Part shown: piece after piece, positions 31,143 to 44,974 of the stretch
How positions within the stretch are numbered: the stretch's first letter is position 1
Layout of the letters: every line of letters starts with the position of its first letter
Source: a candidate division BRC1 bacterium HGW-BRC1-1
Lineage (GTDB): Bacteria; Sumerlaeota; Sumerlaeia; Sumerlaeales; Sumerlaeaceae
Direction: 5' to 3'
Assembly (NCBI GenBank): GCA_002842095.1
Contig: PHCB01000015.1
Span: forward strand, 1-61,213
DNA: 61,213 nucleotides
The notes under the pieces: model-generated
Database searches by the model: none
What the model saw: only the letters and a program-made list of their open reading frames with translations
Told to the model about the DNA's origin: nothing
Made by a program: the position numbers and the translations under genes

Positions 31143-32381
31143 TTACCGCTCTACCTGGTTCATCCTTGCGAGGATTTTGGCGGAGACGCCCAGCACGTTC
31201 AGGAAACCTTCGCTGTCGGCGTGGTTGAACTCGCCGACTTTTTCCATGGAGGCTGCGCTTTCGCTGTACAGGCAGTTGGGCACGTCGGTGGCGCTTACGA
31301 AGATCACGTGGCCCTTGTACAGGTCCAGCGTGATGGTTCCGGTGGCGAACTGGGCGAAGCTGTCCACGGCGGCTTTGGCGGCTTCGGAGGCGGGGTCGTA
31401 CCAGTAGCCCTGATATATCTGCTCGCTGAGCTGCAACGAAAGCTGGTCGAACAGTTTCTTCGCGCGGCGGTCGAGTACCAGTTGCAGCAAATACTGGTAG
31501 GCCTTGCCGAGCATCTCCATGCCGGGGGTTTCGTACACGCCGCGGCTTTTGATGCCGACGAAGCGGTTCTCCACCAGGTGGCTGCCGATACCGATGGCGT
31601 TTTCGCCACCGATCTGGTTGGCGATATCAAACGCTTCCAGGGTGCTGACTGGTTTCTTGTTGATGGCGACCGGGTAGCCCTTTTCGAACCGCAGTTCGAT
31701 GCGCGTAGCCTTGTCGGGGGCGGCGGTGGGTAGCACGCCAAACTCGGGGTCGATGGCCCACGCGCCCACTTCGAGGCTTTCCAGTTTGCCGGCCTCGTGG
31801 GTCAGGCCCAGCAGGTTGGCGTCGGTGCTGTAGGGCTTGGCGTGGGTGGCTTTGATGGCCACTTCGCGGCGCAGGCAGAAGTCGATCATCTCTTTGCGGC
31901 CGCCGAAGGCGGTGAGAAATTCCTGATCGCGCCAGGGGGCGTACACATCAAAATCGGGGGCGAGCATGTTGGTCACGAGTTGGAAGCGGACCTGATCGTT
32001 GCCGCGTCCGGTTGCGCCGTGGCTCAGGATGCGGATGTCGCGCTCGCGCATCACGTCGAGGATGAGGGCCGTGGTCACATGGCGTGCGATGCCGGTCGTG
32101 TTCCAGTAGTCGCCCTCGTAGCGCGCCTGGGCCTGCACAACGCGCATGCCTTCCTCGGCGAGGGCATCGCGGCCGTCCACCACCACGGCGTCCACAGCAC
32201 CGGAGTCGAGCATGCGCTGGCGCACGGCTTCGAGATCGGGGTCGTCGGGCTGGCCGAGGTCGAGGGTCACGCTCACCACGTTCACGCCGAGATCGGTCAA
32301 CCAGCGTGTGATGGTGCAGCTATCCAAACCGCCGGAGCCGGCGAATGCGATGGTCTGGCCTTTAAGTTCGTGTGCCTTCAT
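31143..32381 (-). CDS. argG: Argininosuccinate synthase
   Basis: 412 residues from the ATG at 32381 (MKAHELKGQTIAFAGSGGLD). ATP-dependent ligation of citrulline and aspartate in arginine synthesis; cytosolic. The N-type ATP pyrophosphatase loop GSGGLDS is at 15-21, followed by 'VTLDLGQPDD', 'SHGATGRGNDQVRF' and 'KSRGVYETPG', all diagnostic. A longer in-frame start upstream (32510) has no family support. No argH or argJ neighbour; the gene has its own terminator. It is divergent from the Rrf2 gene, so the 186-nt gap holds promoters for both. Confidence 0.95.
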   Translation of the reverse strand: MKAHELKGQTIAFAGSGGLDSCTITRWLTDLGVNVVSVTLDLGQPDDPDLEAVRQRMLDSGAVDAVVVDGRDALAEEGMRVVQAQARYEGDYWNTTGIARHVTTALILDVMRERDIRILSHGATGRGNDQVRFQLVTNMLAPDFDVYAPWRDQEFLTAFGGRKEMIDFCLRREVAIKATHAKPYSTDANLLGLTHEAGKLESLEVGAWAIDPEFGVLPTAAPDKATRIELRFEKGYPVAINKKPVSTLEAFDIANQIGGENAIGIGSHLVENRFVGIKSRGVYETPGMEMLGKAYQYLLQLVLDRRAKKLFDQLSLQLSEQIYQGYWYDPASEAAKAAVDSFAQFATGTITLDLYKGHVIFVSATDVPNCLYSESAASMEKVGEFNHADSEGFLNVLGVSAKILARMNQVER

Positions 32382-32503
32382 GGGTGCGTTAGTTTCAACC
32401 TCGTGGTGGTGAATTGTGGGGTTAATCAAGAAAGGGAGCGACGGGAGATGCGAGCAAAATTTCGAGGGGTCTGAATGGGCAATCTTGGAATATCGCATTC
32501 GGG

Positions 32504-32543
32504 TTGACAACGCGGCTTTATACTGGACAACTTTATCCAGTAT
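32504..32543 (+). promoter_or_regulatory. Promoter region with 24-bp palindromic operator upstream of the Rrf2 gene
   Basis: ATACTGGA (32520-32527) and TCCAGTAT (32536-32543) form a perfect 8-bp inverted repeat around an 8-nt spacer, 24 nt before the regulator start. A TTGACA-like -35 (32504-32509) and a TATACT hexamer (32519-32524) overlap or adjoin it, though their spacing is not ideal. The size and place fit an autoregulatory site for the dimeric Rrf2-family regulator; the binding is inferred. Confidence 0.65.
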
Positions 32544-32567
32544 CTCGTGAGAGGAAGAGGCGCAGAC

Positions 32568-33032
32568 GTGATTTCATCAACCGGGGAGTATGCTTTGAGG
32601 GCGGCGGTTTATCTGGCCCAGCATCGCGACGCGCCCCAGACAACGGCAAAGATTGCGGAAGGAACGAAGGTGCCTGCGGGCTATCTGTCGAAAATTCTGC
32701 AGCAATTGGTGCGTGGAGAAATCGCGTCGTCGCTGCGTGGGGCCCATGGAGGGTTTGTGCTGCTGCACGATCCCGACGCGGTGACCGTGTGGGATGTGCT
32801 GACGGCGGTGGGCGCGGCGCCCGAGCGCATCGAGACCTGCCCGCTGGGCATCGAGCGCCATGAGGGTTTGTGTCCGGTGCACCGGCTTGTGGACGATGCC
32901 GTGGCTGAGGCGCAGCGTTGTTTCAGTTCGGCCACGCTGGCCACTTTAGTCAGCTCGGTGGATGGCATGACGGCCTTGTGCGAGGTGGCTCCGGCATTGG
33001 GATTGCCGGCCAGGGGAGGCTCGCGGCGATGA
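32568..33032 (+). CDS. Rrf2-family transcriptional regulator
   Basis: 154 residues from the GTG at 32568 (RBS GAGGAAGAGG upstream), giving the family N-terminus 'ISSTGEYALRAAVYLAQH'. The winged helix contains 'TKVPAGYLSKILQQL' and the wing 'LRGAHGGFVL'. The usual effector region reads 'CPLGIERHEGLCPVHRL', with two Cys 11 residues apart and a third further on ('QRCF'), compatible with a [2Fe-2S] cluster as in IscR/NsrR/RirA but not proof. First gene of a nine-gene unit; a palindrome lies in its promoter and its stop overlaps the next start. It probably senses iron-sulfur status, NO or redox and controls the molybdoenzyme genes. Confidence 0.88.
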   Translation: MISSTGEYALRAAVYLAQHRDAPQTTAKIAEGTKVPAGYLSKILQQLVRGEIASSLRGAHGGFVLLHDPDAVTVWDVLTAVGAAPERIETCPLGIERHEGLCPVHRLVDDAVAEAQRCFSSATLATLVSSVDGMTALCEVAPALGLPARGGSRR

Positions 33033-33460
33033 AGATTCGTATTCAGGACAACTCGCTGCGTTTGCGCATGACGCTGAAAGAAGTTGAGGCGCTGGCCGAG
33101 ACGGGGCGCGTGGCGCGATCGATGCAGGTGCAGAGTGCGGCGGGGCCGGGCGGGCGGTTGGACTATGAACTTGTCCGCGATGCAACTCTGGCCGAGAGCG
33201 ATGTGGTGGTTACAGGCAGCGCAGTTTCGGTGCGGTTGTGCGATGCCGACTTCCGCGAGTTACAGCGCGAGGACCGCGAAGGCGTGTATCTGCGGCGCCA
33301 GTGGACCGGCGACGACGGCACGCAGCAGCGCTTCATGGCCTTCGTGGAGAAGGACCGGCCTGGCTCGACCTGCGAGAAAATAGAACAATGGATTTACGAC
33401 GCCCCCGCGCGGGGCGAAGTGGAATTGCGTCCCATCCCGCCAAACGTGCGGCGGGGTTGA
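33029..33460 (+). CDS. Small conserved protein, second gene of the molybdoenzyme operon
   Basis: 143 residues from the ATG at 33029, overlapping the Rrf2 stop (ATGA). It begins 'MKIRIQDNSLRLRMTLKEVE', followed by 'ALAETGRV', which I associate with a small family of unknown function (DUF7009-like) with an N-terminal 'MKIRIxxNSxRxRL' motif; that family name is from memory. The middle is beta-rich and the C-terminal part includes 'MAFVEKDRPGSTCEKIEQW'. No catalytic motif or membrane segment. The tight operon position suggests a role in assembly or cofactor delivery for the oxidoreductase; this is inference. Confidence 0.7.
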   Translation: MKIRIQDNSLRLRMTLKEVEALAETGRVARSMQVQSAAGPGGRLDYELVRDATLAESDVVVTGSAVSVRLCDADFRELQREDREGVYLRRQWTGDDGTQQRFMAFVEKDRPGSTCEKIEQWIYDAPARGEVELRPIPPNVRRG

Positions 33461-33475
33461 GGCGGGAGGCGAACA

Positions 33476-34567
33476 ATGAAAGAATTGACGCGTTTATCAA
33501 AGATGTTTGCAGAGCAATTGCACTGGGGCGCGCTGGCCAAGGCGACCATCGCCACGGCGCTGCTGGGTGTGACGATCATCCTGGGCAGCCGCAATCTGGC
33601 TAACTTCGATGCGGCGCTGATCGGCTACACGTTTGCCTCGCTGTTTGCGGCGTTTGGCATTGTGTACCGCTACAGCGTGTGGCTCACCAAACCGCCCACG
33701 CGCATGTACTGGCGGCGCGGGTGGCAGTTGTTTCTGTCGCCCCGGTTGTGGAAAAATCTGCGCTCGCCGCGCATCCTGGCCGAGGCCGTGGTGCGCAAGA
33801 TCGTGGTGCAGGATTTCGTGTGGCACCGCAGCCCCGAGCGCTGGGCCGGGCACATGCTCATCGCAGCCGGCTGCGTGCTGGCGGCGCTGGTTACGTTTCC
33901 GCTGGTGTTCGGCTGGGTGCATTTCACGCAGGGCGCTATTACCCCCGAGCCCACCTACATCATTCAGGTTTTCGGTTTCGGCGTGCGCGAAATTGCCCTG
34001 CATGGTTTGGAAAGCTGGTTCACGTTTCACGCTCTCATTGTGGCCTCGGTGCTGGTTATTCCCGGCGTGATGATCGTCATGTACCGCCGCATGCTCGATA
34101 CGGGCGCGGTGGCGGTGCAGCGTTTCAGCCGCGATTTTCTGCCGCTCATTCTGCTGTTCGCGGTCGCCTTCACGGGTTTGCTACTGTGGGTCAGCTACGA
34201 ATTTCTTGAGGGATATTTTTACACGGCGCTGGCGCAGCTCCACGCGTGGACGGTCATCGGCACACTGATCTATCTCCCCTTCGGCAAGCTGTTCCACATC
34301 TTCCAGCGACCCGCCACGTTGGGCATTGCTTATTACAAGTCGCACCTCAGCGAGTTGGAACCGGCGTGCTGTCCGCTGACCGGCGAAGAGTATGCCCCGG
34401 CGGTACAAACCAAAGACCTGACCGAGGTTCTGCACGAGTTGGATTTCGATTATTCCGCCGTTGGCGGGCCGCCCGAGACTCCGCCGTGGAACGAGATTTC
34501 GCCTGCAGGAAAGCGCATGCTCATCGGCCGCGCCCATTCAAAAATTCGCAACGACCGTTTCGACTAA
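33476..34567 (+). CDS. NarI/HdrE-like diheme cytochrome b membrane subunit
   Basis: 363 residues, RBS GGGAGG 6 nt before the ATG. Six membrane segments at about 18-37, 45-65, 123-147, 178-203, 219-243 and 254-276. Candidate heme-ligand His: H126 ('WAGHMLIAAG'), H176/H185 and H256/H274. The last pair is 18 residues apart ('LHAWTVIGTL...KLFH'), as are H187 and H205 in NarI, the quinol-oxidising cytochrome b of nitrate reductase. The segment 'KIVVQDFVWHRSPERWAGHM' parallels the NarI-like domain of HdrE/DsrM proteins. A ~75-residue cytosolic tail follows. Likely role: electron transfer between menaquinol and the molybdoenzyme. The family call is by pattern; the exact subfamily is uncertain. Confidence 0.7.
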   Translation: MKELTRLSKMFAEQLHWGALAKATIATALLGVTIILGSRNLANFDAALIGYTFASLFAAFGIVYRYSVWLTKPPTRMYWRRGWQLFLSPRLWKNLRSPRILAEAVVRKIVVQDFVWHRSPERWAGHMLIAAGCVLAALVTFPLVFGWVHFTQGAITPEPTYIIQVFGFGVREIALHGLESWFTFHALIVASVLVIPGVMIVMYRRMLDTGAVAVQRFSRDFLPLILLFAVAFTGLLLWVSYEFLEGYFYTALAQLHAWTVIGTLIYLPFGKLFHIFQRPATLGIAYYKSHLSELEPACCPLTGEEYAPAVQTKDLTEVLHELDFDYSAVGGPPETPPWNEISPAGKRMLIGRAHSKIRNDRFD

Positions 34568-34579
34568 GAGGATCTGACC

Positions 34580-36808
34580 ATGGCACGCCCCTCAATGAGT
34601 GTGGATGATTATGTAGAGAAGTACGGACCGCACATCTCGGACCTGCCCGTGACGGGTTGGAATTCCAAGCCCGAGCCGGATGCGCTGGTGGAAACCCACT
34701 GTTGTTTCTGCGGCATGCAGTGCGGCATCAAGCTGGCCGTGAAGGATAACAAGGTCATCGGTTTCGAACCGTGGGAAGAGTTCCCCTTCAACGAGGGACG
34801 GCTCTGCCCCAAGGGTGTGAAACGCTACATGCAGACCCACCACCCGGACCGTATCCTCGATCCACTGATCCGCACCGAGACGGGTTTCCGCAAGGCGTCC
34901 TGGGACGAGGCTCTGGATCTGGTGGTGTCGAAAATTCGCGCCATTCAGGAGAAGTCCGGCAAGCACGCCTTCGGCATGATGAGCGGCGTTTCGCTGTCGA
35001 ACGAGAAGAGCTATCTGGTGGGCAAGTTCGCCCGGTTGGCATTGCAGACGCGCAATCTCGACTACAACGGGCGCTTCTGCATGGTGTCGGCGGGTGGCGG
35101 CAACAAGAAGGCGTTCGGCATCGATCGCGCGGCCAACACGTGGAGCGACATCCCGCTGGCGTCGGTGGTTTTTCTCGCGGGGACGAACGTGTCGGAATGC
35201 TTCCCCACGCTGACCCACTACATCTGGCAGGCGCGCGATCGCGGCGCGAAGCTGATCGTGGTGGACCCGCGCGTGACGCCCATTGCACGCACGGCGGACT
35301 ATCACCTGCAGATTCGACCCGGCACCGACAGCGCGCTGAACCAGGCACTGCTGCATGAGTTGATTCGCAACGACTGGGTCGACCATGACTTCGTCACCCA
35401 GCATTGCAAGGGTTGGGAAGAATTGAAGGCGTCGGTGGAAAAATGCACGCCGGAATGGGCTGCGGAGATATGCGGCATCACGCCGATAATTATCCGCGAG
35501 GTGGCGGCCGTGTGGGGACCGGCGAAGACGTCGTTCCTCATGCACGCGCGCGGTGTGGAGCAGCAGATCAAGGGCGTGGAAAACGTGCTGTCGCTCATCA
35601 ACCTCGTGCTGACGACCGGACGTATCGGGCGCCCCGGTTGCGGCTATGGCACCATCACCGGCCAGGGCAACGGCCAGGGCGGGCGCGAGCATGGTCACAA
35701 ATGCGATCAGTTGCCCGGCAACCGCGACATCGAGAATCCCGAGCATCGTGCGTACATCTGCAAGGTGTGGGGCATCGACGATTCGGAACTGCCGCACAAG
35801 GGCCTGACGGCCGTGGAGATGTTCGAGGCAATCCACGAAGGCGAGATCAAGGGGCTGCTCAACATCTGCTGCAACCCGCTGGTCAGCCATCCGGATACGA
35901 ACTATCTGCGAGAGACGCTGGAGGGGATGGAATTCTTCTGTGTCATCGACTTCTTCATGAGCGAGACTGCGCGCTATGCCGACGTGGTATTGCCCGGCTC
36001 GCTGCACGAGGAGGAGGAGGGCACGGCCACCAGCGCCGAGGCGCGCATCTGTCGTCTGCGGGCGGCCATTTCGCCGCCGGGCAATGCGCGGCGCGATACG
36101 GACATCCTGCTGGAGATCGCCCGACGTCTGGGCCGCGAAAAGTATTTCCCGTACAGCGAGCCCCACGAGATTTTCGAGGAACTGCGCGTGGCCAGCAAGG
36201 GCGGCACGGCGGATTATTACGGTGTGACGTATGAGCGCATCGAGAAGGAAATGGGCGTCTTCTGGCCCTGCCCCGAGATCGGGCATCCGGGCACACCGCG
36301 ACTCTTCGAGGACAAAAAAAGTTATCAGCCCGACGGGCTCTTTCACATGCACGTAACGGCGTACCGGCCCAGCTTTGAGGTGCCCGACGACGAGTATCCG
36401 CTGTACTATACGACGGGTCGCAGCGTGTTCCACTACCTCAGTGGCACGCAAACCAGGCGCATCAAATTCCTCGTGGATAACTTCCCCGGTCCGGTCTGCG
36501 AGATGCATCCGAAACTGGCAGCGAAGATGGGGCTGAAGCACCGCCAACTGGTGACGGTGGAAACGCGGCGGGGCGCGATAAGCATACCGCTGGACGTGAC
36601 CGAGACCATCCGCCCCGACACGGTTTTCGTGCCGTATCACTGGGCCGAGAAGCTGGCGGCGAATCAGCTCACGGTGCGGGCGCTGGACCCCGTCAGCAAG
36701 ATGCCTGAGTTCAAGGTTGCGGCGTGTCGCGTGCGCCCGGCGACACCCGAAGAATCCGTGCGCCTGCGAAAAGATTACGCGGCGCTGAAACAGGAGGCGG
36801 ACGCATGA
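34580..36808 (+). CDS. Molybdopterin (bis-MGD) oxidoreductase, NarB/NasA-like
   Basis: 742 residues, near the length of assimilatory nitrate reductases. The N-terminal [4Fe-4S] motif is C41-x2-C44-x3-C48...C76 ('CCFCGMQC', 'RLCPKG') with the adjacent electron-transfer Lys78. The Mo ligand is Cys167 in 'YNGRFCMVSAGGGNKKAFG', the position of the Mo-Cys in Nap/NarB enzymes ('RLCMSSA'). Also 'AGTNVSECFP', 'GYGTITGQGNGQGGREHG' and the C-terminal dinucleotide-binding domain 'VPYHWAEKLAANQLT'. No Tat signal, so it is probably cytosolic. Its stop overlaps the ferredoxin-subunit start. Nitrate is the best-guess substrate given a neighbouring SLAC1-type channel, but formate or another oxyanion cannot be excluded. 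Confidence 0.88.
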   Translation: MARPSMSVDDYVEKYGPHISDLPVTGWNSKPEPDALVETHCCFCGMQCGIKLAVKDNKVIGFEPWEEFPFNEGRLCPKGVKRYMQTHHPDRILDPLIRTETGFRKASWDEALDLVVSKIRAIQEKSGKHAFGMMSGVSLSNEKSYLVGKFARLALQTRNLDYNGRFCMVSAGGGNKKAFGIDRAANTWSDIPLASVVFLAGTNVSECFPTLTHYIWQARDRGAKLIVVDPRVTPIARTADYHLQIRPGTDSALNQALLHELIRNDWVDHDFVTQHCKGWEELKASVEKCTPEWAAEICGITPIIIREVAAVWGPAKTSFLMHARGVEQQIKGVENVLSLINLVLTTGRIGRPGCGYGTITGQGNGQGGREHGHKCDQLPGNRDIENPEHRAYICKVWGIDDSELPHKGLTAVEMFEAIHEGEIKGLLNICCNPLVSHPDTNYLRETLEGMEFFCVIDFFMSETARYADVVLPGSLHEEEEGTATSAEARICRLRAAISPPGNARRDTDILLEIARRLGREKYFPYSEPHEIFEELRVASKGGTADYYGVTYERIEKEMGVFWPCPEIGHPGTPRLFEDKKSYQPDGLFHMHVTAYRPSFEVPDDEYPLYYTTGRSVFHYLSGTQTRRIKFLVDNFPGPVCEMHPKLAAKMGLKHRQLVTVETRRGAISIPLDVTETIRPDTVFVPYHWAEKLAANQLTVRALDPVSKMPEFKVAACRVRPATPEESVRLRKDYAALKQEADA

Positions 36809-37527
36809 CAGTAGTGTTCAAAGAATTCTTCATCGACTTCCAGCGGTGCATCGGCTGCGAGGCCTGCGCGGCGGGTTGCGCCGAGTGCCACACGCACCGC
36901 GGCTACCCGATGGTGCAGGTGGACAAGGTCGATCCGGCCATGAGCCCGCAAACGTCGCCCATGGTCTGCATGCACTGCAAGGTGCCCACGTGCGCGTTGT
37001 CGTGTCCGGCCGACGCCATCAAGGTGGACGAAAACGGCATCGTGCATTCGAGCCTCAAGCCGCGCTGCATCGCCTGCCGCAACTGCGAACTGGCGTGCCC
37101 ATTTGGTGTGCCCATGATCCGCGAAGACATCCAGCAGATGCAAAAGTGCGACATGTGTTTCGACCGTACCGCCGCGGGCAAGAAACCCATGTGCTGCACG
37201 GTCTGCCCCACCGGCGCGTTGCACTATAACACGATGGAAAACATGCTGGCGGCGCGGCCCCACAGCAAGCCCATCAACAAGTGGCAGTTCGGTAATCAGA
37301 TTGTGGAGACGCGCCTGTGGGTGATGGTGCCCCACGATGTGGATATTATGGTGGTCGACTGGCCCGAGCTTCTTGCGGGCGCAGCGGGGCCCATCGAGCT
37401 GGCCGTGAAGCTGAAGGAGCGGTTCCCCCTGCAGGGCTTCCCCGGCCCGCAGCCGACCCGCGACGAACCCGTGCCCGTGGGCGCGGGGGTTGGATCATTC
37501 TCCGACACGGAGGCGGAATACCTGTGA
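36805..37527 (+). CDS. Four-cluster [4Fe-4S] ferredoxin-type electron-transfer subunit
   Basis: 240 residues from the ATG at 36805 (overlap ATGA with the molybdoenzyme stop). Sixteen Cys in the four-cluster pattern of NrfC/HycB/DmsB-type subunits: 'CIGCEACAAGC', 'CMHCKVPTCALSCP', 'CIACRNCELACP', and 'CDMCF' with 'CCTVCPTG'. Linear electron wire between the membrane cytochrome b or Rieske protein and the molybdoenzyme. No signal peptide. The C-terminal ~70 residues ('WVMVPHDVDIMVVDWPELL') are specific to this subgroup. Its stop overlaps the Rieske gene start (GTGA). Confidence 0.9.
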   Translation: MTVVFKEFFIDFQRCIGCEACAAGCAECHTHRGYPMVQVDKVDPAMSPQTSPMVCMHCKVPTCALSCPADAIKVDENGIVHSSLKPRCIACRNCELACPFGVPMIREDIQQMQKCDMCFDRTAAGKKPMCCTVCPTGALHYNTMENMLAARPHSKPINKWQFGNQIVETRLWVMVPHDVDIMVVDWPELLAGAAGPIELAVKLKERFPLQGFPGPQPTRDEPVPVGAGVGSFSDTEAEYL

Positions 37528-38060
37528 AATATAAATCATCCACCTCGCCCAAATGGCGCGAGGATTTCCCCATCGAGCAGGAGTTTGACGACTTCGTCAC
37601 GCGGCGCGATTTCATCCGGTTCCTCGGGCTTGTCAGCGCGGGTTTGGCGGTTGGAAGCGGGTCGGTGGCGGTGAACTCGCTGACCCATACAGAAGTGGAA
37701 GCGCTGCCCGAACTGGCCGTGGCCGGAGCGGATACGTTGAAGCCGGGTTCGTGGCTGGTGTTCAATTATCCCGATGAGCATTCTCCCGCGATGTTGATCC
37801 GTCGCGAGGATGGCGAGTACGCGGCGTACCTGCAGAAGTGTCCGCACCTGGCGTGCCCGGTATCGTATCATGCGGCCGGCAGCGACGGCGAGCCCGAGGG
37901 GCTGCGGTGCCACTGCCACAACGGGCGGTTTGATCTGGATACAGGCAAGGGCACGGCGGGTCCTCCCCGAGAACTGCGCCCGTTGCGGCGCGTGGAACTG
38001 CGCGTCGCTGATGACGGCAGCGTGTCCGCCGTGGGGCTGGCAAAGCGCCACAAAGCATGA
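37524..38060 (+). CDS. Rieske [2Fe-2S] protein with Tat signal/anchor
   Basis: 178 residues from the GTG at 37524, with GGAGGCGG 8 nt upstream. A twin-arginine signal 'TRRDFIRFLGLVSAGLAVGS' (26-45) suggests Tat export with the helix kept as an anchor. The Rieske cluster ligands are C106-P-H108 and C129-x-x-H132 ('CPHLACPV', 'RCHCHNGRFD'). The fold ends with 'GPPRELRPLRRVELRV'. In bc1/b6f-type complexes such a protein takes electrons from quinol on the outer side; here it is paired with a NarI-like cytochrome b and a molybdoenzyme. The stop overlaps the next start (ATGA). Confidence 0.9.
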   Translation: MKYKSSTSPKWREDFPIEQEFDDFVTRRDFIRFLGLVSAGLAVGSGSVAVNSLTHTEVEALPELAVAGADTLKPGSWLVFNYPDEHSPAMLIRREDGEYAAYLQKCPHLACPVSYHAAGSDGEPEGLRCHCHNGRFDLDTGKGTAGPPRELRPLRRVELRVADDGSVSAVGLAKRHKA

Positions 38061-39145
38061 GTACCGTCTCAGAAAATAAAAGCCCTCTCACGCTGGCAGT
38101 ACAGCAGCTTCATCCGGCATATTTCGCGCTGGTCATGGCCACGGGCATCGTGGCGATTGCCGCGCAGTTGCAGGGATACCACGCCGTGGCAATGGGCCTG
38201 GGGGTCCTCAACGCTTTACAGTATGCGGTGCTTATAGCACTGCTCGTACTTCGAGGGGTTCGCTACCCCCGGACGGTTCTGGCCGACGCCGGGCACCACC
38301 TGCGCGGGCCGGGATTTTTCACGCTCGTGGCCGGCACCAGTGTGCTGGGTTCGCAGGCGCTGATTGTGATGGGCAGCCCCCGGATTGCGGTGGCGCTGGG
38401 CGTGGCCGCGTTGCTCTTTTGGGTGGTGATCAACTACGGCGTGCTGACCTTGTTGATCGTCAAACGCGAGAAGCCCGAAATAGCGCAGGGCCTGAACGGC
38501 GGCTGGCTGGTGGCAGTGGTTGCGGCGCAATCGCTGGCCGTGATCTTTGCGCTGGTCGCGCGCCGCGTGGGGGTGGAGTGGCACGAAGCGCTTCTGTTGC
38601 TGGGCCTCATGAGCTGGTGTTTCGGCGGCATGTTGTACGTCTGGATTATCTCGCTGATTTTTTACCGCTACCTTTTCCTCGTCATGGACCCCGGCGACCT
38701 GACGCCGCCCTATTGGATCAACATGGGCGCGCTGGCGATTTCCACACTGGCCGGCGCAAACCTGCTGGCGGCGGCTTCACTCAGTCCGTTGCTTTTGGAA
38801 CTGGTTGTGTTCATCAAAGGCGTCACGTTTTTCTTCTGGGCCACGGCCACCTGGTGGATCCCGATGCTCGTCATCCTCGGGTTCTGGCGTCACGTTGTGC
38901 GGCGGTTTCCGCTGCGTTACGATCCGCTGTACTGGGGCATGGTCTTCCCGCTGGGCATGTATTCCACCTGCACCTTCCGCCTGGGACAGGAACTGCAACT
39001 GGCGCTGCTGGCTCCGGTGGCACGCGGCATGTTCTTCGTAGCGATTGTCGTGTGGGCGGTCGTGTTCACGGGCATGCTGAAGCGTTTGCGCTTCACCCTC
39101 GCGCCTGCCGCGGCGCCATCCATTATCGCAAGTAAAGGAGCCTGA
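38057..39145 (+). CDS. TDT/TehA/SLAC1-family anion channel or transporter
   Basis: 362 residues with ten hydrophobic segments and the family start 'LHPAYFALVMATGIVAIAA'. Later 'WCFGGMLYVWIISLIFYRY', 'FWATATWWIPMLVILGFW' and 'WGMVFPLGMYSTCTFRL' match TehA/SLAC1-type channels. Members move C4-dicarboxylates, tellurite-linked compounds, sulfite, or nitrate and chloride (plant SLAC1). Its place inside a molybdoenzyme operon makes it a candidate nitrate/nitrite or other oxyanion passage; that is inference. It overlaps the Rieske stop by 4 nt and is followed after 3 nt by the next gene. Confidence 0.85.
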   Translation: MSTVSENKSPLTLAVQQLHPAYFALVMATGIVAIAAQLQGYHAVAMGLGVLNALQYAVLIALLVLRGVRYPRTVLADAGHHLRGPGFFTLVAGTSVLGSQALIVMGSPRIAVALGVAALLFWVVINYGVLTLLIVKREKPEIAQGLNGGWLVAVVAAQSLAVIFALVARRVGVEWHEALLLLGLMSWCFGGMLYVWIISLIFYRYLFLVMDPGDLTPPYWINMGALAISTLAGANLLAAASLSPLLLELVVFIKGVTFFFWATATWWIPMLVILGFWRHVVRRFPLRYDPLYWGMVFPLGMYSTCTFRLGQELQLALLAPVARGMFFVAIVVWAVVFTGMLKRLRFTLAPAAAPSIIASKGA

Positions 39146-39148
39146 ATC

Positions 39149-39412
39149 ATGGCTATTCGCAAACCGCGCTTCGACACGCGACCCGGAGTTACGGCCTCGG
39201 CCACGGCGCGCGTCTGGATCTGCGGCATTATCTGTGTGGTGCAGTATTGGTTGCTCACGGCAGCCAATGAAGCTTTTCACGGTGGCAATCTGAAGGTGGG
39301 ACTGCCCGCATTTCTGGCCTCGCTGGTTTGCTTCGTGTTGGTCGCTGGCTTGATTGTGGTGGGCGAAAGTGGCTCCCACAAAATGCAGGAAGAGCTGCGC
39401 GATAACGAATGA
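39149..39412 (+). CDS. Small two-helix membrane protein of the molybdoenzyme operon
   Basis: 87 residues, RBS AAAGGAG before the ATG. Two membrane segments at about 22-41 ('VWICGIICVVQYWLLTAAN') and 51-72 ('LPAFLASLVCFVLVAGLIVV'), with a short basic N-tail and an acidic C-tail. Its placing between the channel and mobA, with a 4-nt overlap to mobA, argues for a structural or assembly subunit of the membrane complex. It may match a small DUF6755-like family seen with Rieske/molybdoenzyme genes; I recall this only loosely. Confidence 0.7.
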   Translation: MAIRKPRFDTRPGVTASATARVWICGIICVVQYWLLTAANEAFHGGNLKVGLPAFLASLVCFVLVAGLIVVGESGSHKMQEELRDNE

Positions 39413-40062
39413 GCGAGCCGCTCGCCGCCGGCCTGCTGTCGGCGGGCACTCTGTGTGTCATCCTCGCGGGGGGAAGATCGTCGCGCATGGGCGTGGCGAA
39501 GTGGGCGGTGTGCTTGAAGGACGGACGGACCATGCTTGATCACGTGGCGGACGCATTGCGTCCGTTGGGGTGTCCCATGGCGGTGGCCAGCCCACCGGAT
39601 GGGCTGGGCAATGCGGCAGTGTTGCCGCCGGACCTGACGTTAATCCGTGATGCGGAGAGTTTCGAAGGCCCCCTTGCGGCGCTGGAACACCTGATGCGCC
39701 AGACCCGCGCCGACGTTCTGCTGCTGGCTGGATGCGATCAGCCGCTGTTACGCACGGATGATCTGCGCCGACTTTTGGCGGCGGCGACAGAAGCGCGCCG
39801 GCCTGCGTTTTTCATGAGCGAACAAGGCGAGCGGCTCGATCCGCTGCCGGGTGCGTATCACCGCGACCAGTGGGCGAGCATGGGCGCGGCGCTGGCGACG
39901 GGTGTGCGTTCGCCTCGCCAATGGCTCGCCGAAGTGGATTGCGAATGGGTGGTAATTGATGAGGCCGGCACACGCGCTGCGGCGTCATTCAACACGCGCG
40001 AGCAACTTGTTGCAGCGGGCTTGCTGCCACCCGATATCAGCAAGGCCCACTCGCCACCATAA
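39409..40062 (+). CDS. mobA: Molybdenum cofactor guanylyltransferase
   Basis: 217 residues, start overlapping the previous stop (ATGA). Transfers GMP from GTP to Mo-molybdopterin to form the MGD cofactor needed by the bis-MGD oxidoreductase encoded four genes upstream. The signature nucleotide loop 'VILAGGRSSRMGVAKW' matches LAGGxSxRMGxxK, and 'LLLAGCDQPLL' contains the metal-binding Asp. Length is normal for MobA (~200). It closes the operon: a cell dedicating a MobA copy to the same transcript ties cofactor completion to enzyme expression. Confidence 0.92.
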   Translation: MSEPLAAGLLSAGTLCVILAGGRSSRMGVAKWAVCLKDGRTMLDHVADALRPLGCPMAVASPPDGLGNAAVLPPDLTLIRDAESFEGPLAALEHLMRQTRADVLLLAGCDQPLLRTDDLRRLLAAATEARRPAFFMSEQGERLDPLPGAYHRDQWASMGAALATGVRSPRQWLAEVDCEWVVIDEAGTRAAASFNTREQLVAAGLLPPDISKAHSPP

Positions 40063-40175
40063 TCGGGCCACGACCCGCTTTTCCCGTTTGCAAACCGATG
40101 CGGACAGGCCTCATCCTTGCTCGACAAATTTGCCACTTTAACCCATACGAAACCCCAATCAGACAGAGGAGAACC

Positions 40176-41468
40176 ATGACCACCCCAAAGGCGGCCACTC
40201 TCACCATCGGCGAACAGTCGATTGAATTACCCCTTATCGAAGGCACCGAGGGAGAGGTCGGCATCGACATCTCTCAATTGCGGGCCAAAACCGGCGCGGT
40301 CACGTTCGACCCCGCCTTCGGCAACACCGGCGCGTGCACCAGTGCCATCACTTTCATCGATGGCGAAAAAGGTATTCTTCGCTATCGCGGCATCCCCATC
40401 GACCAGTTTCAGAAAAGCCCCAACTTTATCGAAGTGGCGTGGCTGCTGATTTTCGGCCGCCTGCCGAAGAAGGACGAGCTGCAGCGTTTCAGCGAGAAGC
40501 TGACCGCCCACGCCCATCTGCACGAAGCCATGAAGCACCACTTCGAGGGCTTTCCCGTAAACGCGCCGCCCATGGCCATCCTCTCGGCCATGATCAACGC
40601 CATGTCATGCTTCGACGAGCACTTCGGTCGGTTCGAGGACGACGAGCAGATTGAAGACGCAGCGGCCCGCCTCATCAGCCGCGTGCGCACCATCGCGGCC
40701 TACTCCTACCGCCGCACGAACGGCCTGCCGTTCATGTACCCCGACCCCAGTCTGCGCTACGTGGCGAACTTCCTCCATATGATGTTCTCCATGCCCTACA
40801 ACCAGTACATCGCCGAGGACGAAGTGGACGAGGCGCTGAACCTGTTCCTCATCCTCCATGCCGACCACGAGCAGAACTGCTCCACCAGCACGGTGCGTGT
40901 CGTGGGCAGCAGCCAGGCGAATCTCTTCGCCAGTTGCGCCGCCGGTGTGGGCGCGCTGTGGGGACCGCTGCACGGCGGGGCCAACGTGGCCGTCATCGAC
41001 ATGCTTGAGAAAATCCGGTCAGGCGGTTTGAGCGCCGAGAAATGTCTGGAGCTTGCGAAGGACAAAAACAGCGGGTTCAAGCTCATGGGCTTCGGCCACC
41101 GCGTGTACAAGAACTTCGACCCCCGCGCGAAGATTTTGAAGGCACAGTCGGACAAGGTGCTCAAGAAGCTCGGCGTGCAGGATCCGCTGCTCGAGATCGC
41201 CCAGGAGTTGGAAGAGGCGGCGTTGAAGGATCAGTACTTCGTGGATCGCAAGCTGTATCCGAACGTCGACTTTTACAGCGGCATCATCCTGCGGGCCATC
41301 GGCATTCCCGTCGAGATGTTCACCGTCATGTTCGCCATCGGGCGTCTGCCCGGCTGGATCTCCCAGTGGCGCGAACAGCACGACGACACCTCAACCCGCA
41401 TCGCCCGCCCACGCCAGATTTACACCGGCAACACGCTGACGGACTACACGCCGATGAGCGAACGGTAA
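40176..41468 (+). CDS. gltA: Citrate synthase (type II)
   Basis: 430 residues from the ATG at 40176 (RBS AGAGGAG). Condenses oxaloacetate and acetyl-CoA at TCA-cycle entry; cytosolic. The family start 'LPLIEGTEGEVGIDISQLR' and catalytic residues are present: His in 'LILHADHEQN', His in 'GPLHGGANVAV', and Asp in 'PNVDFYSGIIL'. Length and N-terminal domain fit the hexameric type II enzymes of Gram-negative bacteria. Monocistronic with its own strong terminator. The acetyl-CoA synthetase gene 4 kb downstream would feed it. Confidence 0.96.
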   Translation: MTTPKAATLTIGEQSIELPLIEGTEGEVGIDISQLRAKTGAVTFDPAFGNTGACTSAITFIDGEKGILRYRGIPIDQFQKSPNFIEVAWLLIFGRLPKKDELQRFSEKLTAHAHLHEAMKHHFEGFPVNAPPMAILSAMINAMSCFDEHFGRFEDDEQIEDAAARLISRVRTIAAYSYRRTNGLPFMYPDPSLRYVANFLHMMFSMPYNQYIAEDEVDEALNLFLILHADHEQNCSTSTVRVVGSSQANLFASCAAGVGALWGPLHGGANVAVIDMLEKIRSGGLSAEKCLELAKDKNSGFKLMGFGHRVYKNFDPRAKILKAQSDKVLKKLGVQDPLLEIAQELEEAALKDQYFVDRKLYPNVDFYSGIILRAIGIPVEMFTVMFAIGRLPGWISQWREQHDDTSTRIARPRQIYTGNTLTDYTPMSER

Positions 41469-43322: not shown

Positions 43323-43745
43323 TTAAAACTTCTTCCTGGCGGCTTCCCATGCTTCCTTCATGCGGTCGGAGGCTTTCTCGGCGCCTTCGCGGAGGTCGCC
43401 GGCGGCCAGGCTGACGGAGGTTGAAAAATCGTTGAACTGCACCGCAGCCTCTCCGGCCCGTTCCCGGGCGCGGGCCACCTTGGCGTTCACCACTTCCAGC
43501 TTCTCGCGCACCACCACCAACCCGCTGCTGGTGAATTCGTCCACCTGATCGCGCACATAATACGCCGTCGCGGTGGTTGCCTCCCATGCCTTGTCGGTGG
43601 CGTAGTTGCGACCCGCCGACCAGCTTTCCTCGGTCAGATCCAGCACTTTCTGGGCGTTGGAATTTCCACGCTGGGCGTCTTCCTCCACGCAGCTTTTCAG
43701 CATGGACAGCACGATGACCGCGAAAAGAAGAGCGGGCGATTTCAC
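43323..43745 (-). CDS. Membrane-anchored or lipoprotein-like coiled-coil protein
   Basis: 140 residues from the GTG at 43745, which overlaps the mqnC stop (GTGA). It begins with a hydrophobic segment 'KSPALLFAVIVLSMLKSC'; the LKSC could be a poor lipobox. The rest is charged and helical ('VVREKLEVVNAKVARARERA', 'AAGDLREGAEKASDRMKEAW'), indicating a coiled coil. No known family. Translational coupling to mqnC need not mean a quinone role; it could be a small envelope protein carried on the same transcript. Confidence 0.6.
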   Translation of the reverse strand: MKSPALLFAVIVLSMLKSCVEEDAQRGNSNAQKVLDLTEESWSAGRNYATDKAWEATTATAYYVRDQVDEFTSSGLVVVREKLEVVNAKVARARERAGEAAVQFNDFSTSVSLAAGDLREGAEKASDRMKEAWEAARKKF

Positions 43746-44890
43746 GGCGCAGATGCCTGTTGCGCTGCGCCTGCCACCGGGGCGGGTGCGTCGTTGCTGC
43801 CCTCCAGCGTGGTGCGGCGGGGTTTGTCGGTGTCGTCGTAAAAGAAGTTGCGGCGGCGCGGTTCCATGCCGGCCTCGCGCACGAGGCGTTCGATTTCCCC
43901 GGCGTTCATCGTGAAGGTCGTGCCCACGGCGCTCACCACGTTTTCCTCGATCATCGTGCTGCCCATGTCGTTGCACCCGTGGATGAGGCTCAGCTGCCCC
44001 ACCTTGCCGCCCTGGGTGACCCACGAGCTTTGGATGTTGTCGATGTTATCCAGAAAAATGCGGGCGATGGCGGTGGTCTTCAGATAGTCGAAGGAGCCCG
44101 AAGTCTCGCATTGCAGCGGCAGTTCGGGCGATTGCTGGTACGTCCAATCGATGAACGCCGTCAGCACGCCGGTGTCGTCCTGCAATTCGCGCACACGCAG
44201 CAGATGCTCCACGCGCTCTTCCAGCGTTTCGATGTGACCGAACATCATGGTGGCGGTCGAGCGCATCCCCACCTCGGCGGCTGCCCGCATCACGTCGAGC
44301 CACTCCTCGGTCAGAGCCTTGTTGCGCGTGATGGCGCGGCGCACACGGTCCACCAGAATCTCGCCGCCGCCCCCTGGCAGCGAGTCGAGCCCCGCCGCAG
44401 CCAGACGGCGCAGCACGTCGGTCAGGGTCATGCGGTTGATCTTCGCAAACCAGTGAATCTCGGGCGGAGAAAACGCGTGAAGGTGGATGCCGTACTTTGT
44501 TTTCAGGTGACTCAGCATCTGCTCGTACCAGTCGAGCTTGAACTGCGGGTGCAGGCCGCCTTGCAGAAGAATCTGGTGGCCGCCCAGCGCAATCGTTTCC
44601 TCCACCTTGAGGTCGATCTCTTCCTGCGGAAGCACATAGGCGCGCTCGGCGTCGCCCCACTTGGCGTAGAAGCCGCAGAAATCGCAGTCGGCGGCGCAGA
44701 TGTTCGAGTAGTTAATGTTGCGCTCGATGATGTACGTGGCCACGGGGTCGGGGTGCTTGCGCAGGCGCACGGCATGGGCAGCCGCACCGATGGCCGGCAG
44801 GTCGTTGGAACGAAACAATTCCAGCGCATCGGTGGGGGTGATGCGCTGGCCCTCGCGCGCTTTTTCAAGAACGGGATAAATGCCGGTCAT
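43742..44890 (-). CDS. mqnC: Cyclic dehypoxanthinyl futalosine synthase (radical SAM)
   Basis: 382 residues from the ATG at 44890. Radical SAM cyclase of the futalosine pathway of menaquinone synthesis. The [4Fe-4S]/SAM motif is 'CAADCDFCGFYAKWGD' (CxxxCxxC), followed by 'LLQGGLHPQF', 'HAFSPPEIHWF', 'AAGLDSLPGGGGEILVDRVR' and 'TATMMFGHIET', all typical of MqnC rather than MqnE or CofH. The other mqn genes are not in the window. It shows that the organism makes menaquinone, relevant to the quinol-linked operon at 32.5-40 kb. Downstream neighbour overlaps by 4 nt. Confidence 0.9.
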   Translation of the reverse strand: MTGIYPVLEKAREGQRITPTDALELFRSNDLPAIGAAAHAVRLRKHPDPVATYIIERNINYSNICAADCDFCGFYAKWGDAERAYVLPQEEIDLKVEETIALGGHQILLQGGLHPQFKLDWYEQMLSHLKTKYGIHLHAFSPPEIHWFAKINRMTLTDVLRRLAAAGLDSLPGGGGEILVDRVRRAITRNKALTEEWLDVMRAAAEVGMRSTATMMFGHIETLEERVEHLLRVRELQDDTGVLTAFIDWTYQQSPELPLQCETSGSFDYLKTTAIARIFLDNIDNIQSSWVTQGGKVGQLSLIHGCNDMGSTMIEENVVSAVGTTFTMNAGEIERLVREAGMEPRRRNFFYDDTDKPRRTTLEGSNDAPAPVAGAAQQASAP

Positions 44891-44974
44891 AGTTGGTCGG
44901 GGTGAAACCTCGCTCGTTTGGTCGCGGTGGCGCGGCCTGATGCTTGAAAAGTAGTTTGTTGGGCGAGGCAAATT

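Follow-up and report, generated by a model that had tools for sequence, protein, structure and literature searches.

A likely membrane-bound nitrate reductase of non-classical make-up, with a NasC-type catalytic subunit, a NarI-like cytochrome b and an exported Rieske protein

Nitrate reductases of the NasA/NasC type have been described as exclusively assimilatory and as lacking four-cluster and anchor subunits (Wells et al. 2020, PMC7331816). Rieske and cytochrome b genes are on record next to nitrate reductases of other kinds: the haloarchaeal pNar operon includes genes for a Rieske protein (NarB) and a cytochrome b (NarC) (PMC2483277), and in Caldithrix abyssi a Rieske protein and a cytochrome b are encoded beside Nap, as whose partners they have been proposed (PMC5317091). 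Here we analyse a nine-gene operon on contig PHCB01000015.1 of candidate division BRC1 bacterium HGW-BRC1-1 (Sumerlaeota); the whole 61,213-nt stretch is called the window below and operon coordinates are given in window positions. The operon combines a NasC-type catalytic subunit of the bis(molybdopterin guanine dinucleotide) (bis-MGD) family, MopB, with a ferredoxin, a NarI-like cytochrome b and a Rieske protein exported by twin-arginine translocation (Tat), and we consider it likely to encode a membrane-bound respiratory (dissimilatory) nitrate reductase of non-classical make-up. Such a cluster does not fit either of the two statements on NasC-type enzymes quoted above. A preliminary description of this DNA had already remarked that the layout is not that of classical Nar, Nap or Nas; this holds, with the caveat that a Rieske protein and a cytochrome b are known to accompany haloarchaeal Nar and Caldithrix Nap, although the catalytic subunits there are outward-facing or periplasmic. 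The open literature yielded no description of a NasC-type enzyme in a Rieske/cytochrome b complex (subscription journals lay outside the search), and two papers on Sumerlaeota report narGHI or napA instead of this cluster.

Conservation of the gene set and layout of the operon

GTDB species genomes were scanned with the MopB protein of the window and the 80 nearest loci were compared. The genes for cytochrome b, MopB, ferredoxin and Rieske protein follow each other in the same order on one strand in 77 of them; since the core order is kept to this extent and the other three loci are interrupted by contig ends, conservation of the set is far beyond chance. Hosts are found in Sumerlaeota, Bdellovibrionota (Bdellovibrionales), Verrucomicrobiota, Acidobacteriota (one metagenome-assembled genome, MAG) and Bacteroidota, the last represented by many Flavobacterium along with Algoriphagus, Anditalea and Apibacter. 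The set is thus conserved across several phyla, the point on which the preliminary description had staked its own proposal. The closest relatives are four Candidatus Sumerlaeota MAGs at 77–80% identity. Cytochrome b, MopB, ferredoxin, Rieske protein, DUF6755 and NarK are also encoded together on plasmids of Deinococcus sp. NW-56 and D. wulumuqiensis; there RefSeq leaves MopB without a specific name and labels the NarI-like cytochrome b as 'MFS transporter' (L090:7774-8886 and L108:1885-2997), which is a misannotation. Near home the distribution is patchy, because the cytochrome b of the window, used as a query, has no match in the 7 remaining genomes of its own order. The cluster occurs in 4 of 149 genomes of the family Flavobacteriaceae and in 30 of 150 genomes drawn evenly from the genus Flavobacterium.

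In the window itself all nine genes are co-directional and span 32547-40062 (Table 1); position 32504 is merely the start of an out-of-frame open reading frame (ORF), and the true start of the operon lies at about 32547. Five junctions are 4-nt overlaps (at 33029, 36805, 37524, 38057 and 39409), the other three gaps being 15, 12 and 3 nt. The gene list, the overlaps and the gaps of at most 15 nt given in the preliminary description were all reproduced exactly, and its view of a single transcript is supported. A promoter scan of 32300-40300 returned no sigma-70-like site and an Rfam scan of the window no matches.

The Rrf2-family regulator scores under the cut-offs of both the NsrR and the IscR equivalog models, and its gene is also retained at two other Sumerlaeota loci (L007 and L008). 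Within the cluster DUF7009 is limited to three Sumerlaeota, the two relatives being L005 and L007. No member of the NarJ chaperone family was found among the nine genes with Pfam and NCBIfam profiles and, given this, an assembly role for the DUF7009 protein is conceivable.

Table 1. Operon genes and neighbouring features in the window
Feature	Position	Strand	Basis and remarks
Argininosuccinate synthase	31143-32510	-	Named by eye
Rrf2-family regulator	32547-33032	+	PF02082, E=8e-25; start possibly 32568
DUF7009 small protein	33029-33460	+	PF22668, E=2e-14
NarI-like membrane cytochrome b (predicted)	33476-34567	+	Fold and hhalign to NarI
NasC-type bis-MGD catalytic subunit (MopB)	34580-36808	+	NCBIfam and tree; N-terminal [4Fe-4S] domain
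Ferredoxin subunit, DmsB/FdnH type	36805-37527	+	Fer4_11
AioB-like Rieske protein	37524-38060	+	PF00355; twin-Arg and hydrophobic anchor
TDT/SLAC1 anion channel	38057-39145	+	PF03595, E=1.5e-50
DUF6755 two-helix membrane protein	39149-39412	+	PF20540
MobA-type molybdenum cofactor guanylyltransferase	39409-40062	+	PF12804; TIGR02665 under its cut-off
Citrate synthase	from 40098		Downstream neighbour, named by eye
MqnC	43742-44968	-	Exceeds its NCBIfam curated cut-off

Catalytic and electron-transfer subunits

Among the NCBIfam models NasC is the best for MopB, although below its cut-off (838 bits against 1100); the formate dehydrogenase (Fdh) alpha model gives 593 bits (cut-off 666), NapA 276–291 bits and narG 60 bits of 1084. 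In quick trees (SH-aLRT support, no bootstrap) all MopB proteins of the cluster form one clade (SH-aLRT 100), which is sister to the nirBD-linked NasC of Deinococcus and Actinobacteria (joint clade SH-aLRT 100), while proteobacterial Nas, Nap, Fdh and an actinobacterial-type group all fall outside. Sequence identity is 38–43% to NasC, about 34% to Fdh and 27–29% to Nap. The molybdenum ligand Cys167, correctly named in the preliminary description, sits in the motif NGRFCMVSAG and is invariant across the cluster sequences, all of which have Met directly after it, like NapA and Nas, in contrast to the His of formate dehydrogenases. The earlier assignment to a NarB/NasA-like enzyme can thus be sharpened, from the tree and the NCBIfam models, to the NasC type. 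Other identities were tried and rejected: formate dehydrogenase (FdhF/FdhA) by the Cys-Met motif and the separate clade (SH-aLRT 100), NapAB by the motif, the tree with its separate clade and the lack of a Tat signal in MopB, a NarG-type subunit with Asp at the molybdenum by the narG score and the invariant Cys167, and AioA by the tree and by the Mo-Cys motif, which AioA rows do not have. A special kinship with AioA, as prompted by the AioB-like Rieske protein, finds no support in the tree, where the branches are long.

Of the cysteines in the ferredoxin, 17 are shared by 97% or more of 81 sequences and, because of these, the subunit would have enough ligands for four [4Fe-4S] clusters, as the preliminary description had it. 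The cytochrome b matches no Pfam family, phmmer returned nothing from the PDB, and its AlphaFold model (pLDDT 81) had no significant match there when searched by Foldseek alone. VIA-align superimposes the model on NarGHI entries with Z of 11.2–11.7 over 177–191 residues (root-mean-square deviation about 5) and on EtfD with Z of 11.9, the next, unrelated rows being at about 6.5; since helical bundles can reach Z of such size by chance, the link in sequence matters here. It is provided by hhalign: across 94 columns (E=1.4e-4) the protein aligns with E. coli NarI, H256 falling on NarI H187 and H274 on NarI H205, the histidines of transmembrane helix (TM) V. H126 was placed on NarI H56 by eye, and with this placement the H126/H274 pair would correspond to the cytoplasm-side haem of NarI. 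Only H126, H256 and H274 are invariant in 74 cytochrome b sequences. Two further histidines, H149 on a predicted outer hairpin and H185, each occur in 70 of the 74 (L064 has neither) and could be ligands of an outer haem. The charged loops RRGW after TM I and YRR after TM III would fit a ferredoxin docked on the inside. From the model, the predicted fold is NarI-like, and of the earlier label 'diheme NarI/HdrE-like' the NarI type stands on the structural and hhalign matches; 'diheme' is not upheld as stated, because a residue other than histidine occupies the position of the NarI ligand H66 and the invariant histidines number only three.

The Rieske protein has an invariant twin-arginine (R27, R28), invariant cluster ligands C106, H108, C129 and H132 and an invariant disulphide pair C111/C131 in the alignment of 26 sequences. 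It is closest in sequence and fold to AioB, the best solved matches being all AioB with Z of 13.5–14.2. At the positions of the Ser and Tyr that donate hydrogen bonds to the cluster in cytochrome bc1, it has Gly and Phe. In bc1 the Rieske potential is considered to be raised by hydrogen bonds of this sort and by the disulphide, and a Phe to Tyr change in AioB was without effect (PMC3758308); that the operon protein has a lower potential is only a guess. No signal peptide was seen in MopB or in the ferredoxin, which together with the Tat motif supports the arrangement proposed earlier, with the Rieske protein exported to the outside and the molybdenum and iron-sulphur subunits inside.

Association with nitrate transport and nitrite reduction

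NarK-type transporters adjoin the core in 74 of the 80 loci, and several of the six loci lacking them are truncated by contig ends. Examples are 24–51% identical to E. coli NarK, with the L008 protein (51%) exceeding the NarK-family cut-off. Between the Rieske protein and DUF6755 there are two NarK genes in L008, a protein of the major facilitator superfamily in L006 and TDT in L005 and the window; neither of these two TDT-bearing Sumerlaeota loci has NarK nearby, and no NarK came up when the genome of the window was searched with the NarK from L008. TDT is likely a nitrate/nitrite permease, judging from position, because it occupies the NarK slot and its own genome has no detected NarK, so that the channel for an oxyanion substrate put forward in the preliminary description finds support. 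A DUF6755-like small membrane protein follows the Rieske protein in 64 of the 77 loci according to a simple motif search, Pfam confirming two of the 64. At three loci, one from Acidobacteria and two from Verrucomicrobia (L052, L067 and L074), a NarK-like transporter carries DUF6755 as an N-terminal fusion, and DUF6755 may therefore be a transporter-associated membrane domain. Genes for the molybdenum cofactor come after the cluster in Bacteroidota, as MobA does in the window. Because of the NarK neighbours, the DUF6755-NarK fusions, the Cys-Met pair at the molybdenum and the association with NrfA and NirK described next, the substrate is very probably nitrate.

NarG exceeds its cut-off in 2 of 42 cluster-holding genomes and NapA in none of 24. 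Nitrite reductases are present in most of 24 cluster genomes (a strong NrfA match in 13, NirK in 10, at least one of them in 22). In the even sample of 150 Flavobacterium genomes, comprising 30 cluster holders and 120 others, NirK is found in 21/30 holders versus 26/120 others (p=1e-6), NrfA in 5/30 versus 0/120 (p=2e-4) and either in 24/30 versus 26/120 (p=5e-9), all uncorrected for relatedness; all five NrfA-bearing genomes hold the cluster. In several genomes (for example at L027, L075 and L079) NrfA or NirK lies about 5–13 kb from the cluster. We consider a dissimilatory role quite probable. The genome of the window has no second bis-MGD enzyme, the sole other molybdopterin-family match reading as a NuoG ORF. 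It carries NrfH-NrfA, a Crp/Fnr-type regulator and a divergent Hcp at G000:C12:60000-74000 (NrfH and Hcp exceed their cut-offs and NrfA is a Pfam match), a nitrite ammonification and nitric oxide stress island. In two Sumerlaeota relatives there is, at a distance of a few kb on the downstream side of MobA, a NorB-like nitric oxide reductase gene: at L005:9884-12140 (Pfam) and, by sequence resemblance seen by eye, at L006:8437-10608.

Proposed electron path, its rivals and known systems

We propose that nitrate would enter via the TDT channel and be reduced to nitrite at the cytoplasmic side on the NasC-type subunit, loaded with cofactor by MobA; a catalytic site on the inside is highly likely. 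Menaquinol would be oxidised on the outer face and its electrons would travel inward through the Rieske protein and the cytochrome b, from where the four-cluster ferredoxin would hand them to the NasC-type centre. We infer both these subunit contacts and the direction of electron flow. The membrane-anchored AioB-like Rieske protein would be the outer end at which electrons come in, probably at or adjoining the site of menaquinol oxidation and perhaps between quinol and cytochrome b in the chain, with quinol as the direct donor somewhat favoured. MqnC, seen elsewhere in the window by the preliminary description as well, represents the futalosine pathway and supports the menaquinone route. Nitrite would leave through the channel and be reduced to ammonium outside by NrfAH, the whole amounting to nitrate ammonification.

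Several points weigh against this proposal. We found neither biochemical nor growth evidence for any member of the cluster. The position of the NarI ligand H66 is Ala136, which makes the outer haem uncertain, the TDT protein of the window is a putative nitrate channel proposed from its position, and the genome association figures ignore kinship among the genomes. The AioB-like Rieske protein could also dock a cytochrome c instead of serving quinol, or could export its partners by Tat hitchhiking.

The first of these two options is the rival that survives best. The Rieske protein would act as a port for a periplasmic cytochrome c or cupredoxin, with electrons flowing from there through the Rieske protein and the cytochrome b to nitrate, and because AioB has been solved in complex with its native cytochrome c552 (8ed4), this is a serious competitor to quinol. 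Streptomyces Nar1 relies on the bcc-aa3 supercomplex (PMC7931247), and absence of the canonical outer-haem ligand points the same way. However, NarI-type subunits normally oxidise quinol themselves and the operon has no cytochrome c gene, and we judge this reading to be unlikely. Somewhat less probable still is that the outer Rieske protein and the NarI-like cytochrome b form an undescribed quinol-oxidising module, in which the Rieske protein would replace or split off from the outer haem path and menaquinol electrons would be divided between the nitrate reductase inside and an acceptor outside, such as a nitrite reductase branch. If true, NarI instead of cytochrome bc1 would here be the basis of a Q-cycle-like device.

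An assimilatory enzyme, using the membrane module as its electron donor and providing nitrite for conversion to ammonium in biosynthesis, would agree with the catalytic subunit being nearest to NasC of assimilatory nirBD loci, and Nas systems can have MobA and NarK too. But neither the window nor any fully read locus has nirBD or nasB next to the cluster, the association with dissimilatory NirK and NrfA is strong, and D. wulumuqiensis keeps a separate NasC-nirBD locus on the same plasmid as the cluster; an assimilatory role thus appears improbable. We give slightly less credence still to Tat hitchhiking, in which the molybdenum and iron-sulphur subunits would be exported together with the Rieske protein and the enzyme would face outside like AioAB. 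AioB supplies the Tat signal for AioA, and here too the Rieske protein, with AioB as its nearest relative, is accompanied by a MopB and a ferredoxin without signals of their own. Against this, NarK is found by nearly every copy and would be required only for an active site inside, while the invariant H126 and H274, as ligands of a cytoplasm-side haem, and the charged loops of the cytochrome b would fit the inside orientation. Another substrate (formate, selenate, chlorate or arsenite) or operation as a nitrite oxidase, for which one could cite Fdh alpha as the second-best family model and the likeness of the Rieske protein to that of arsenite oxidase, is very improbable given Cys-Met rather than Cys-His at the molybdenum, the AioA rows without the Mo-Cys motif, the tight link to NarK, NirK and NrfA and a tree that sets MopB apart from Fdh, Nap and Aio.

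The respiratory nitrate reductase that we propose offers an explanation of nitrate reduction in bacteria apparently without NarG and NapA, for example Flavobacterium denitrificans and Apibacter muscae. Surveys of nitrate respiration based on narG and napA would miss the cluster, and annotation based on NasC would read it as assimilatory. The role of the Rieske protein becomes a testable bioenergetic question.

Each of the known systems shares a part of this arrangement. In haloarchaeal pNar, the catalytic NarG faces outward and the Rieske protein and cytochrome b are described as being of the bc1 kind (PMC4683180), and Caldithrix abyssi has a periplasmic NapA with NapM, NapGH and a bc1-like cytochrome b. 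AioAB shares the pairing of a molybdoenzyme with a Rieske protein; AioA, however, is periplasmic, acts on arsenite and has no Mo-Cys, and AioAB has no NarI-like subunit. NarGHI is similar in its cytoplasmic molybdenum subunit, its iron-sulphur subunit, its NarI-fold cytochrome b and its NarK partner, whereas the cluster has a catalytic subunit that is not NarG, Cys as the molybdenum ligand, no counterpart of NarI H66, an additional Rieske protein and no NarJ. NasC of the assimilatory, nirBD-linked Gram-positive type is the sister of the catalytic subunit, likewise cytoplasmic and with Cys-Met at the molybdenum, but it is soluble, has no membrane anchor and works with NirBD or soluble donors, while in the cluster the place of these partners is taken by ferredoxin, NarI-like cytochrome b and Rieske protein, the first two co-encoded with the catalytic subunit in 77/80 loci and predicted to be in contact with it.

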